64,000 nt of DNA from assembly GCF_027980145.1 (NCBI RefSeq), contig NZ_JAMZNK010000010.1, positions 62,001-126,000 on the forward strand, written 5' to 3'. Every line of letters starts with the position of its first letter. The first letter of the stretch is position 1. The notes under the pieces were generated by a model. That model saw only the letters and a program-made list of their open reading frames with translations. It did not search any database and was not told the DNA's origin. The translations under genes and the position numbers were made by a program. The DNA is from Flavobacterium azizsancarii (lineage in GTDB: Bacteria; Bacteroidota; Bacteroidia; Flavobacteriales; Flavobacteriaceae). Positions 895-50,127 of the stretch are shown here, one piece after another.

Positions 895-940
895 ATAGAA
901 TTATTGATACAGAAATAGTTAATCCTCATTCAAAAATCTC

Positions 941-958
941 TTAACTTAATGACATTGC
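941..958. repeat. Solo copy of the 18-bp end of the 46.8-kb MITE-like element
   Basis: CTTAACTTAATGACATTG is identical over all 18 bases to the right terminal inverted repeat of the element at 46813-46965. No matching left end is found at the expected distance. It is directly followed by a small hairpin, GCAGG-CTAA-CCTGC. Confidence 0.6.
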
Positions 959-30586: not shown

Positions 30587-31295
30587 GCCATGAATTGCAC
30601 GAATTATTTTTTAACGCAGATTAAAAAAGATTTCAGCAGATTCACGCAAATCAGTTTTAATAAAAATCTTTTCAAATCTGCTTAAATCTGCAGAATCTGC
30701 GTGAAACAAAATCATTATAATCCTTTAATCTGTGGCTGTACTTTTTCGCCACGAATTGCACGAATTAGCACGAATTATTTTTTAATGCAGATTTAAAAAA
30801 GATTTCAGCAGATTAATGCAAATCAATTTTAATAAAAATCATTTTAATCCTTTAATCTGGGGCTATATTTTTTGCCACGAATTGCACGAATTAGCACGAA
30901 TTATTTTTTAATACAGATTAAAAAAAAATCAGCAGATTCACGCAATTAATTTTAATAAAAATCTTTTCAAATCTGCTTTAATCTGCAGGATCTGCGTGAA
31001 ACAAAATCGTTATAATCCTTTAATCTGTGGCTATGATTTTCGCCACGAATTGCGCAAATTAGCACGAATTATTTTTTAACGCAGATTAAAAAGGTTTCAG
31101 CAGATTAATGCAAATCAATTTTAATAAAAATCATTTTAAATCTGCTTTAATCTGCAGAATCTACGTGAAACAAAATCATTATAATCCTTATAATCTGTGG
31201 CTATACTTTTTCGCTACGAATTGCACAAATTTTCACTAATTAAATTACATTAAGCTAATAAAAAATTCGCGCTAATTAGTGTAATTCGTGGCTAA
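30587..31295. repeat. Array of five imperfect tandem repeats (about 126-171 bp each)
   Basis: Units start at 30587, 30748, 30874, 31042 and 31213 with GCCACGAATTGCACGAATTA or close variants. Each unit then runs through GCAGATTAAAAAAGATTTCA, CAAATCTGCTTTAATCTGCA and GAATCTGCGTGAAACAAAAT, ending near AATCTGTGGCTAT. Within a unit, GCAGATT and AATCTGC blocks pair, so each copy can fold. The second unit is about 40 bp shorter and the last is partial and diverged. Together with short flanks this fills the tilS-pabB gap; no gene is present. Confidence 0.85.
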
Positions 31296-45719: not shown

Positions 45720-46439
45720 ATGAACTTACGTATATACAAAACAACCGAAGAATTAACGCTGGATTTAGCCAATTACATTATTGAGATTGCACAAACAGCA
45801 ATAGAAAAAAACGACCGTTTTAATTTTGTGCTTACCGGAGGAAATTCACCTAAAGCACTTTATACTTTTCTAGCTACTGAATACAGAAACAAAATCGACT
45901 GGAACAAGGTATTTTTCTTTTTTGGCGACGAACGTACTGTTCCTGCAAACGATGAAAACTATAACGGCTTAATGGCTAAAAGATCTTTTTTTGATATCTT
46001 AGAAACATCCGAAAATCATATTTTTTATGTCAATACTACTTTAGATCCTGAAGCCGCAGCCGCTGATTATAAAAGCAGAATCGACAAACATTTTGACAAC
46101 AATGATCTTGTTTTTGATTTAATTCTTTTAGGCATGGGAGATGATGCACACACAGCTTCTATTTTCCCGCATACTACTTTGGTTGCTGATACAGAAGCTA
46201 CTGTAGCATCAGTATTTGTAGAAAAATTAAACACACATCGTATTAGCTTAACAGCTCCGTTAATCAATAAAGCGCTAAATGTGGCATTTTTAGTTTTTGG
46301 AGCAAACAAAGCCGAAGCACTAAAACACGTAATTAAAGACGAGCAAAAAGAGGTGAACAACTACCCTTCTCAATTGATACAGCCTATCGACGGAAAATTG
46401 ACCTGGTTTGTTGATGAAGCAGCTTCCAGCTTGCTATAA
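45720..46439 (+). CDS. pgl: 6-phosphogluconolactonase
   Basis: Pgl hydrolyses 6-phosphogluconolactone, the product of Zwf, to 6-phosphogluconate, the substrate of Gnd, which completes the three-gene oxidative pentose phosphate operon. The frame is open from an ATG at 45687, but that start lies inside a hairpin, and the ATG at 45720 (MNLRIYKTTEEL) gives the normal length of 239 residues. Family motifs are NFVLTGGNSPKALY, the phosphate-binding FFFGDERTVPANDENYNG, LILLGMGDDAHTASIFP with the catalytic histidine, and HRISLTAPLINKA. This is the NagB-like (DevB/SOL) type, not the YbhE beta-propeller type. Confidence 0.95.
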   Translation: MNLRIYKTTEELTLDLANYIIEIAQTAIEKNDRFNFVLTGGNSPKALYTFLATEYRNKIDWNKVFFFFGDERTVPANDENYNGLMAKRSFFDILETSENHIFYVNTTLDPEAAAADYKSRIDKHFDNNDLVFDLILLGMGDDAHTASIFPHTTLVADTEATVASVFVEKLNTHRISLTAPLINKALNVAFLVFGANKAEALKHVIKDEQKEVNNYPSQLIQPIDGKLTWFVDEAASSLL

Positions 46440-46673
46440 GGCGAGGTATCTCACAGAGATTCCCGGAGAGCTTTTTTGCCCACGGATTTTACGGACAAAA
46501 CAGATTGACGCCGGTTTCTTTTTAATCTTTGTCAAAAAAAATCTGATAAATCTGCGAGAGAAAAAATTAGCCATAGATTCTTTTAATAAAAATTTCTCGC
46601 AGATTTAAAAAGATTTAAGCAGATAAGCGCAGATTATTTAATAAAAATCTAAAATTAAATCTGCTATAATCTG

Positions 46674-47108
46674 CTCCCGATAGCTATCGGGACTGCGCGC
46701 AACAAAATCATTTTAATATTAATAGTCTTTGGCTGAACATTTCTTTACTTAGATTTTTTTGCCACAAATTTCACAAATTAGCACAAATTATTTTCTCACG
46801 CTCCCGATAGCTCAATGTCATTAAGTTAAGTTTTTTAAGGACAATTATGGCTAAAAAAATTCGCAAAGGCGCAAAGAAAACGGATGTAAACTTGGCGGCT
46901 TTGCGACTTTGCGCGAGATCAATTAGACAAAAGCATCATAGCTTTTCCTTAACTTAATGACATTGCCCGATAGCTATCGGGACTACGTGAAACAAAATCA
47001 TTTTAATCTTAATAGTCTTTGGCTGAACATTTCTTTACTTAGATTTTTTTGCCACAAATTTCACAAATTAGCACAAATTATTTCTCACGCTCCCTATAGC
47101 TATCGGGA
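46674..47108. repeat. Tandem repeat of 126-127 bp, one copy interrupted by an inserted element
   Basis: A unit starting CTCCCGATAGCTATCGGGAC (palindromic core) and running through AACAAAATCATTTTAAT, AATAGTCTTTGGCTGAACAT and GCCACAAATTTCACAAATTA begins at 46674 and 46801, and the next copy starts at 47090. The first spacing is 127 bp. The second is 289 bp, but falls to 126 bp when the 153-bp inserted element and its 10-bp duplicated target are removed. Flanking DNA (46440-46673 and 47109-47220) has GCAGATT/AATCTGC inverted repeats like those at 30.6-31.3 kb. There is no gene in this 780-base gap. Confidence 0.8.
46813..46965. mobile_element. MITE-like element, 153 bp, with 18-bp terminal inverted repeats
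   Basis: The ends are perfect inverted repeats: CAATGTCATTAAGTTAAG (46813-46830) and CTTAACTTAATGACATTG (46948-46965). The flanks carry a 10-bp direct repeat CCCGATAGCT (46803-46812 and 46966-46975), which is present once in the uninterrupted tandem copies, so it is a target-site duplication. An inner inverted repeat CGCAAAGGCGCAAAG/CTTTGCGACTTTGCG (46862-46876 and 46899-46913, 14 of 15 matching) adds structure. A 36-codon open frame (46847-46957, starting MAKKIRKGAKKTDVN) runs across it, but is probably a by-product of the repeat. It has no transposase and would need to be moved in trans. Confidence 0.75.
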
Positions 47109-47220
47109 CTGCGTGAAAGAATCTTTTTAATGAGTGGCTAAAACTTAAGATAAAACATAAAAATCCGCGCTTATCCGCGTTTTCACGTAGTGAATCCGTA
47201 TCATCCGTGGGCATACTATC

Positions 47221-50127
47221 TCAACGCAAGCAATTCCTTAAAATGCTTACCGGATGCTGTGCTTCCCTACTCGTTCCGTCAAAAATTTGATGGCGGCAGC
47301 TCGTTCCTGCGGCGGCGATTTTTACGTTTTCGGCAGTAGCACGGACTTTAGGGAATAAGGCATCCTCTCCCATTTGCATACTTACCTGATAATGTTCTTT
47401 TTCGTAGCCAAATGATCCTGCCATTCCGCAACAGCCCGAATTATAGATAGTAACCGTATTATTCGTTGGCAAATTCAGCATTGCGAAAGTCGCTTCTACC
47501 GAACTCAACGATTTCTGATGGCAATGCCCGTGAATTTTGATTTCCTTCTTTTCTTCTGAAAAAGAATCAGGTTTGATCTTACCGTCTATAATTTCTTTTT
47601 TAAAGAATTCTTCGATCGTAAAAGCACTTTGTGCTACTTTCTGAGCGCTTTCTTTATCATCTGCCAAACGTAAATATTCGTCCCTAAAAGTCAAAATTGC
47701 CGATGGTTCTATACCTATCAAAGGTGCTTTCGCAGAAATTAAATCCTTGAAAATATTGACATTGATATTCGCGATCTTCTTTGCTTCTTCCAGAAATCCT
47801 TTCGACAAATAGGTTCTTCCGCTTTCTTCGTGATTTACAACCAGAACTTCGTAACCCAATTTGGTTAATAATTCGAAAGCATCGATTCCGATATTGACAT
47901 CGTAATAATTCGTAAATTCATCATTAAACAAATACACTTGTCCGTTCGGGAAATTATTTTGTTGTGGCTTATGGTTTTCATACCATTTTTTAAACGTCTT
48001 TTTGGCTAGCAACGGAACTTGTCTTTCCGGTGCAATTCCCATACTTTTCTTCACCAGGGATTGATTCGAAATAAAATTCGTAATCGACGGAAACAAACTT
48101 CCCATTTTATTCAGTTTTGCATTGTGTGCAAAAATCTTATTTCGGGTCGAAAATCCGTTTGCTTTTTGATATTGGTATAAAAATTCTGCTTTTAAGGTTG
48201 CAACATCCACATTACTAGGACATTCACTTGCGCAAGCTTTACAGCTCACACACAACTCAAAAACTTCGTATAACTCCTTCTGATCGAATTTGTTTTCTTT
48301 CTCAGAATACGTTAAATATTCACGCAACGCATTCGCTCTCGCACGCGTTGTTTCTTTTTCGTTTTTTGTCGCACGATAACTCGGACACATTGATCCTCCT
48401 GCCGATGGTAATTTTCTGCAATCTCCTGATCCGTTACATTTTTCGGCAGCACGCAAAATCCCTAAACTGTCTGAGAAATCCTGAAACGTCTTTATATCCG
48501 GTTCTGTCCTGCCTGAAATCACACGATGGTTTTCGTCCATCTTTAAAGCGTTGACAATCTTCCCGATATTCAAAACCGAATTCGGATCAAACGTCAATTT
48601 GATTCTTTTCAGCAACTCATAATTGGTTTCGCCAATCATAAACGGAATAAATTCTCCGCGCACAATTCCGTCGCCGTGTTCACCGCTTAGCGAACCTCTG
48701 TATTTCTTTACCAAAATGGCCACATCGGTCGCAATGGTTCTAAAGAGTTTTAAATCTGATGTTTTCTTTAAATTCAAAACCGGACGCAAGTGCAGTTCTC
48801 CCGCTCCGGCATGTGCGTAATAAATAGCGTCTTGTCCGTGGCGTAGCATCATGGCCGAAAACTCTGCAATATAAGCAGGTAAATCACTCAATTGAACTGC
48901 CGTATCCTCAATAGAATCAGCTGCTTTGTCATCGCCAACAATACTTCCTAAAAGTCCGAGACCGGCTTTTCTAAGTTCGTTTACTTTATCAATATCAGCA
49001 CCGTATATTTTTACGAGCGCGTAACCAAAGTTATTTTTTTCTAAATCGGCCACTAAAGCATTTGCTTGATTTTCGGCATCTGCCGCATCATGTGAAGCGA
49101 CTTCAAACATCATAATCGCTTTAGGTTCTCCAACCAGAAAAAATCTGTTTTTAATGTGTTCGCGACTTGTTTTTGTACAATCTAAAATTGTATCGTCGAT
49201 CATTTCGCAAGTATACAAATGATGTTTCATTGCTACTACGACAGATTCCAGCGATTCCTGAATACTATGATAATGCGCCACGACCATAATATTATTCGCT
49301 GGCGGTAAATCATCAACTTTTAAAGTAATTTCGGTTGTAAAAACCAGCGTTCCCTCGCTTCCGCAAAGTAATTTCCCTACGTTTATTGTGGGTTCAGTTC
49401 CGCCAAACAAATCCGATTTTAATAGAATATCAACGGCATAACCTGTATTTCGTCTGTGAATTTCCGGTTTTGGAAACTCCTTGATAATTTCGTCCTGCGT
49501 TGCTTTTACCGAAAGTTCCTCATAAAGACTTTTATATATTTTATTTTCTAAAGTATCTCCTTTGGTTTTTGCAATAAATTCCGCCGAAGTCAACTCGTTA
49601 AAAACCACCTGAGAACCATCGCTTAAAAGTCCTTTGATTTCGACAATTTTATCGCGCGTCACACCATAACGAATCGAAGTCGTTCCCGAAGAATTATTGC
49701 CCACCATTCCGCCAATCATACAACGGTTTGTGGTTGAAGTGTTAGGTCCGAAAAAAACGCCATGTGGTTTCAGAAATAAATTCAGTTCATCACGAATTAC
49801 ACCGGGCTGAACTGTAACCGTTTTTTTAATGGGGTCGAAATTCAGGATTTTGGTAAAGTTTTTCGAAACATCGACCACAATTCCGTCACCAACCGTTTGT
49901 CCGGCAAGTGAAGTTCCTGCCGTTCTGGGCGTAATCGAAATATGATGCTGCGCCGCAAACCGAATCACTTTACTGATATCTTCGATAGTTTTAGGAACAG
50001 AAACCGCTTTTGGTCGAATTCTGTACACCGAAGCATCGGTCGAATAAAGCGTTTTATGAAGATCATCGTATAAAAGTGTTCCTTCTAATGACGTTGCTAA
50101 TTGTTCTAACTCCTTATTTATTGACAT
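47221..50127 (-). CDS. FAD-linked oxidase fused to Fe-S domain (YdiJ/D-2-hydroxyacid dehydrogenase type)
   Basis: The 968-residue cytosolic protein joins two parts. The N-terminal half is a VAO-type FAD oxidase: ITPRTAGTSLAGQTVGDGIV (FAD phosphate loop), GGMVGNNSSGTTSIRYG, and the C-terminal cap with YYAHAGAGELHLRP and SLSGEHGDGIVRG, whose histidines are active-site or metal residues. The second half has ferredoxin-like clusters, CNGSGDCRKLPSAGGSMCPS and CVSCKACASECPSNVD. It ends with two CCG-type motifs of the GlpC/LutA heterodisulfide-reductase kind (HGHCHQKS and NSGCCGMAGSFGYE). This is the layout of YdiJ, a D-2-hydroxyglutarate dehydrogenase, and of large D-lactate dehydrogenases. The exact hydroxyacid cannot be fixed from sequence. 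It is alone on the minus strand between repeat regions. Confidence 0.9.
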   Translation of the reverse strand: MSINKELEQLATSLEGTLLYDDLHKTLYSTDASVYRIRPKAVSVPKTIEDISKVIRFAAQHHISITPRTAGTSLAGQTVGDGIVVDVSKNFTKILNFDPIKKTVTVQPGVIRDELNLFLKPHGVFFGPNTSTTNRCMIGGMVGNNSSGTTSIRYGVTRDKIVEIKGLLSDGSQVVFNELTSAEFIAKTKGDTLENKIYKSLYEELSVKATQDEIIKEFPKPEIHRRNTGYAVDILLKSDLFGGTEPTINVGKLLCGSEGTLVFTTEITLKVDDLPPANNIMVVAHYHSIQESLESVVVAMKHHLYTCEMIDDTILDCTKTSREHIKNRFFLVGEPKAIMMFEVASHDAADAENQANALVADLEKNNFGYALVKIYGADIDKVNELRKAGLGLLGSIVGDDKAADSIEDTAVQLSDLPAYIAEFSAMMLRHGQDAIYYAHAGAGELHLRPVLNLKKTSDLKLFRTIATDVAILVKKYRGSLSGEHGDGIVRGEFIPFMIGETNYELLKRIKLTFDPNSVLNIGKIVNALKMDENHRVISGRTEPDIKTFQDFSDSLGILRAAEKCNGSGDCRKLPSAGGSMCPSYRATKNEKETTRARANALREYLTYSEKENKFDQKELYEVFELCVSCKACASECPSNVDVATLKAEFLYQYQKANGFSTRNKIFAHNAKLNKMGSLFPSITNFISNQSLVKKSMGIAPERQVPLLAKKTFKKWYENHKPQQNNFPNGQVYLFNDEFTNYYDVNIGIDAFELLTKLGYEVLVVNHEESGRTYLSKGFLEEAKKIANINVNIFKDLISAKAPLIGIEPSAILTFRDEYLRLADDKESAQKVAQSAFTIEEFFKKEIIDGKIKPDSFSEEKKEIKIHGHCHQKSLSSVEATFAMLNLPTNNTVTIYNSGCCGMAGSFGYEKEHYQVSMQMGEDALFPKVRATAENVKIAAAGTSCRHQIFDGTSREAQHPVSILRNCLR

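Follow-up and report, generated by a model that had tools for sequence, protein, structure and literature searches.

MIC231 cassettes are moved by the transposase of IS231 and can carry genes. Going by the titles among the references of PMC2266710, they are modular cassettes of an IS4-family insertion sequence (IS) of the Bacillus cereus group; in this they resemble the short Flavobacterium elements described here, which differ from them in belonging to another IS4 subgroup and another host phylum and in being short (74-497 bp). The subgroup concerned is IS4, for which a table in PMC2266710 gives ends of the form -AATR--------WTW, a size of 1400-1650 bp and a target duplication of 10-13 bp. 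An IS4-family element with a taste for palindromes is ISRm22 of Sinorhizobium meliloti, found inserted in REP palindromes (nine copies in the text and 10/10 in the table, in the portion of PMC1525189 drawn on here). Within Bacteroidota, the BrickBuilt and MITEPgRS elements of Porphyromonas gingivalis are MITEs that share terminal inverted repeats (TIRs) with full genomic ISs, as described in parts of PMC4596501; by its title, PMC9769881 concerns a MITE of Cardinium.

We analysed a 64,000-nucleotide stretch of the Flavobacterium azizsancarii genome (hereafter the window; C11:62001-126000 of a 5.84 Mb assembly in 167 contigs) and found in it a 153-bp element which is a MITE of an IS4-subgroup IS: the kind is already known, and this member of it is new. 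Like the P. gingivalis elements it is a Bacteroidota MITE with IS-matching TIRs; unlike it, those have IS5-family ends of about 12 bp and uneven duplication lengths, as far as the consulted parts of PMC4596501 describe them. A search of a library of papers found none with the TIR or hairpin sequence given below, nor one on IS4-family MITEs of Flavobacterium. It is very likely, in our estimate, that the element belongs to a Flavobacterium-resident IS of the IS4 subgroup, whose transposase moves it via shared 18-bp ends into GC-rich, often hairpin-forming repeats, with duplication of 9-10 bp.

The window element and its empty sites

The features on which the argument draws are as follows:

46674..46800, no strand: upstream repeat unit of 127 bp with the intact target hairpin at its start, i.e. 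an empty site (from hairpin spacing)
46803..46812, no strand: left copy of the 10-bp target duplication CCCGATAGCT (flank comparison)
46813..46965, plus strand: the whole MITE (exact 18-bp TIRs at either end, without a transposase frame)
46813..46830, plus strand: left TIR CAATGTCATTAAGTTAAG (exact)
46831..46947, plus strand: MITE interior (matched 18 times, in full or in part, within the source genome; the best eight at 80-100% identity)
46948..46965, minus strand: right TIR, CAATGTCATTAAGTTAAG on the opposite strand (exact)
46966..46975, no strand: right copy of the target duplication CCCGATAGCT, followed by the remaining hairpin ATCGGG (flank comparison)
47090..47108, no strand: third hairpin copy CTCCCTATAGCTATCGGGA, a second empty site (sequence comparison)
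940..957, minus strand: a further exact TIR, one end of a second, decayed element at about 700-957 (TIR match)

The sequence-only reading had proposed a MITE-like element of 153 bp with perfect 18-bp inverted repeats at its ends, a duplicated 10-bp target and no transposase, caught within one copy of a tandem repeat next to an empty site, and each part of this description held up. Both TIRs are exact, the 10-bp direct repeat CCCGATAGCT lies on either side, and the longest stop-free frame inside the element is only 47 aa, so that it encodes no transposase. It is thus short, bounded by TIRs and devoid of a transposase, as MITEs are. TIR matches at ≤3 mismatches number three in the window against 0.15 expected. 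Scanned against Rfam at gathering thresholds, 46500-47250 had no match, and a search of the MITE against phages and plasmids was likewise empty.

The element has gone into one of two repeat units of 126/127 bp, where it cuts a CCCGATAGCT/ATCGGG hairpin in two. Hairpin copies start at 46674, 46801 and 47090, with spacings of 127 and 289, and subtraction of 163 bp (the element and one duplication) from the latter leaves 126; the proposed return of the period from 289 to 126 bp is hence confirmed by the hairpin spacings. With the insert removed, the two units differ by a 1-bp indel and, at a shift of 127, are 90.5% identical in the 116 positions compared without gaps. The empty state of the target can be read on both sides: the hairpin is intact at 46674, as CTCCCGATAGCTATCGGGA, and the variant CTCCCTATAGCTATCGGGA stands at 47090. 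A TRF run did not list this two-copy array around the MITE.

The MITE sits between convergent frames, with a plus-strand end at 46439 and a minus-strand stop at 47221, which we take, from the look of their sequences, to be a 6-phosphogluconolactonase and an FAD-binding/Fe-S oxidoreductase. No orthologous empty site was readable outside this species: of 26 genomes, five matched the neighbor gene, the source genome being one of these, and elsewhere the match came only in pieces.

Two further regions of the window have features of related kind. Tandem repeats of 126, 168 and 295 bp lie nested at 30592-31242, where GCCACGAATTGCACGAATTAGCACGAATT modules resemble those in the MITE-flanking units. 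The second element (L089, about 700-957) includes the TCATCTCGACGAAGGAGAGATCACAC module on the opposite strand in its interior, and no partner end within 5 mismatches was found for it in an 801-bp stretch.

A genome-wide search with the TIR, as the sequence-only reading had advised, recovered 22 exact copies in the source genome versus none for the reversed control, and 64 versus 11 at ≤3 mismatches. Pairing of ends at this limit, with enough flank, gave 18 distinct elements, a count from which C85:71955 and C132:13103 (3 mismatches each), unread beforehand, were left out. A target duplication, defined throughout as at least 9/10 or 8/9 matching bases, is present in five of the 18 and absent from 13: the window copy has a perfect 10-bp one, two others are perfect at 9 bp and two match at 9/10. 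Three copies retain two exact TIRs, namely the window copy (10/10), L013 (9/10) and L018 (G000:C127:22257-22412), whose flanks GGCGCGAGCG and CGCTCGCGCC are inverted rather than direct repeats.

Where matches to the interior were examined for TIRs, 4 of 9 loci had none nearby (L156, L161, L163 and L164); a core module of the MITE interior therefore seems to occur outside such elements too. L161, L163 and L164 match just a core of 29-44 positions; L156, perhaps a decayed element, matches positions 1-80.

The partner insertion sequence and its transposase

IS-length copies bearing the TIRs of the MITE number 15, from 11 genomes; they span 1414-1463 bp and encode a transposase of ~440 aa, in some cases with a broken gene. 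Although the selection limit was 3 mismatches per end, each end lies within 2 mismatches of the TIR. The size falls inside the 1400-1650 bp of the IS4 subgroup, and CAATGTCATTAAGTTAAG conforms to its end pattern. The transposase scores 170 bits against the IS4-family model NCBIfam NF033592 (cut-off 115) and 64.7 bits against PF01609, and in an alignment of 13 transposases with E. coli InsG the IS4 signature Y, R, E and K is invariant with the right spacing, Y-(2)-R-(3)-E-(6)-K. In ends and size the Flavobacterium IS is a counterpart of the IS4 subgroup as tabulated in PMC2266710, and it has the YREK motif. The duplications of 9-10 bp seen across MITEs and ISs are slightly short beside the 10-13 bp of that table, the 9-bp cases among the MITEs falling below the range. 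Of the 18 TIR positions, 13 and 14 are matched ungapped by the respective ends of E. coli IS4 (insG) itself, whereas InsG and the Flavobacterium transposase are just 22% identical; the window MITE further differs from E. coli IS4 in having no transposase of its own.

An IS with the same TIRs, which the sequence-only reading had named as the thing to look for, is found complete in related genomes, and the source genome has truncated right ends of it, giving the MITE the likeness to an autonomous partner that is expected of its kind. Since its ends match complete ISs in related species, the MITE probably borrows the enzyme of another element. The IS transposase would recognize the 18-bp ends common to IS and MITE and mobilize the latter in trans, presumably by the cut-and-paste route ascribed to the IS4 family; it would insert the MITE into repeats that are short, rich in GC, often able to form hairpins and marked by a symmetric C-4-G core, and would duplicate 9-10 bp of target in doing so. 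What is seen directly are the same ends on MITE and IS, the same duplication length class and the adjoining empty site, and from these we infer the movement in trans, which the sequence-only reading had taken to be necessary.

At E <= 1e-30, a search with the full protein has matches in 14 of 398 genus genomes, several of them fragmentary or with stops, and 12 of these 14 genomes contain the exact TIR. A scan of genome contigs confirmed just two loci, in F. foetidum and F. urumqiense. The IS copy of another genome of the genus, G370 (L113), has 30-bp flanks identical to those in the F. foetidum record (L095). Among plasmids, the transposase found 453 matching records, all below 60% identity (the best at 37%), and the right end of the IS found no match.

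The assembly of the source genome contains no full transposase of this type. It does hold two IS right ends of 106 bp each, formed by bases 1-106 of contigs C111 and C167, both of which start 88 bp inside the right end of the IS; the 88 bp encode the C-terminus of the protein, a 26-aa piece for which 7 of 299 genomes of the genus, among them the source genome, gave a match. The bases beyond the TIR differ between C111 and C167, so that the two right ends represent separate insertions, and the common break is probably that of a multi-copy repeat in a draft assembly. Left ends for these right ends were not found: besides these two, none of the 64 TIR matches lies at a contig end, and the left ends and flanks of these ISs are therefore unaccounted for.

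These observations bear on whether the MITE is a fossil, moved long ago by an IS4-type transposase since lost and now inert, a history that would be compatible with the main explanation and that we hold possible, if rather doubtful. The missing full transposase, the decay of many TIRs in the genome (22 exact among 64 at ≤3 mismatches) and the 13 of 18 elements without duplication speak for it; yet the window copy keeps two perfect TIRs along with a perfect duplication, and the same genome has two distinct insertions of an IS right end, with both contigs broken at the same internal place.

The distribution of ends and enzyme across the genus raises a second issue. The exact TIR is present in 88 of 398 genomes (with no match to the reversed control among the genomes listed), and 76 of these 88, the source genome among them, have no full transposase detected at E <= 1e-30, a number that is an upper bound because draft assemblies can collapse ISs and few candidates per genome were scored. 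G154 and G165, with about one contig each, are TIR-bearing genomes without a detected transposase. A different, unseen transposase of the same end specificity might accordingly move the MITEs, now or formerly, all the more as the loci were found via this one protein and other TIR-bounded genes would have been missed. We nevertheless judge this unlikely. Even where identity to the query falls to 46-53%, the TIRs that bound the protein have ≤2 mismatches, and a protein of only 32% identity (L109) has ends with one mismatch; as divergent proteins keep near-identical TIRs, one protein group and one end sequence suffice. Further, ISs can be hidden by repeat collapse in drafts, as seems to be so in the source genome.

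Target duplications and target choice across the genus

Duplications were assessed in 118 distinct elements from 30 genomes, 103 of them below 600 bp (MITEs) and 15 above 1300 bp (ISs). Elements were left out if an end had more than 3 mismatches or the flank was shorter than 14 bp, and the set leans to intact elements because many loci outside the source genome were chosen for closely spaced ends. As a null, left and right flanks were shuffled against each other within each genome 2000 times, genomes with fewer than three elements being pooled. A 9-10-bp duplication at threshold is present in 60 of 118 elements, where the shuffles give 8.4 on average and 19 at most; the other 58 have none. Perfect flank identity peaks sharply in length: 11 bases in one element, 10 in 21, nine in 12 and eight in two, with none at seven or six, one at five and nine at four. 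By class, duplications occur in 54 of the 103 MITEs and in six of the 15 ISs; five ISs have a perfect 10-bp one and nine have none at threshold. Among MITEs, 33 of the 54 with two exact TIRs and 21 of the 49 others have a duplication.

The expectation of target duplications at other copies is borne out, 54 MITE-length elements having one, with two refinements: the length is 9 or 10 and not always 10, and in the source genome just 5 of 18 paired copies have one.

The apparent duplication might conceivably be an accident of insertion beside palindromic repeats, with hairpin copies mimicking it; the flanks are indeed often hairpin repeats, and shuffled flanks yield 8.4 false duplications per 118. 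The excess of the observed 60 over the maximum of 2000 shuffles, the narrow peak at 9-10 bp and, at the window copy, the restoration of the 126-bp unit upon removal of the element and one repeat make this extremely improbable.

Genuine duplication upon insertion being preferred, the elements without one call for comment. Loss of duplications via recombination, adjacent deletion or decay is treated in the portion of PMC11708052 drawn on here. In G403, two oppositely oriented IS copies about 760 kb apart (L099 and L110; C1, about 2.66 and 3.42 Mb) have exactly exchanged 10-bp flanks, the left 10-mer of each being the right 10-mer of the other, which is consistent with IS-IS recombination and an inversion of about 760 kb. 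One of these 10-mers also adjoins a MITE of the same genome (L206) and is a recurrent target, so the exchange could be due to chance. No further pair with exchanged flanks was found at ≤3 mismatches; exchange therefore leaves most of the missing duplications unexplained.

The duplicated sequences have a symmetric core, C-4-G: among those of 10 bp, 28 of 41 have C at position 3 and G at position 8, as against 3.2% of 10-mers in six loci, and among those of 9 bp, 15 of 19 combine C at position 3 with G at position 7. A hairpin score of at least 6 is reached over the empty site in 25 of 60 cases. For positions that lie 60-150 bp away the figure is 179 of 1200 (Fisher 1.2e-6); mononucleotide shuffles reach the score in 68 of 1200, and 11% of 1200 positions taken from other parts of the loci do so. 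Hairpins are favored as targets and not required, since 35 of 60 sites fall below this score. In the insertion of IS4-family elements into extragenic palindromes, the parallel is with ISRm22 as described in parts of PMC1525189; that element is placed in a different subgroup, IS4Sa, in the sections of PMC2266710 drawn on here, and the hairpin preference of the Flavobacterium elements, as judged from 60 sites, is only partial (25/60).

Interior variety and significance

Single-linkage clustering (E <= 1e-5, 60% coverage) divides the 103 MITE interiors into 12 clusters of 38, 17, 13, 9, 8, 8, 3 and 3 members plus four singletons, a rough number because linkage may chain unrelated interiors and the coverage limit may split related ones. 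MITE interiors and the IS have almost nothing in common besides the TIR. An origin of the former by internal deletion of the IS, tried by comparing the 103 MITE interiors with 15 IS interiors, was unsupported, with three short matches (25-32 bp, E near 1e-3). The genome G136 has 130 exact TIRs, and its elements adjoin one another in places (e.g. L175).

A wider proposal would treat one IS4-type 18-bp end as a general packaging signal in Flavobacterium, placed around about a dozen unrelated short modules and spread preferentially into hairpin repeats by a genus-wide, often absent transposase, with the end pair as a main builder of mosaic intergenic repeats. We put this forward tentatively, as a speculation that may well prove too broad.

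The window MITE is a clear but ordinary case of its kind, and a clean natural record of MITE insertion in which the empty site is visible alongside. Through it, repeats scattered over Flavobacterium genomes are linked to a single transposase group. Being so conserved, the 18-bp end offers a simple handle for finding elements, spotting assembly breaks at ISs and studying hairpin targeting of IS4 type, while IS copies with exchanged flanks, like the G403 pair, can flag rearrangements. It is the breadth that is noteworthy: across the genus, one nearly invariant end pair encloses interiors of about a dozen kinds, often where the transposase itself is unseen.
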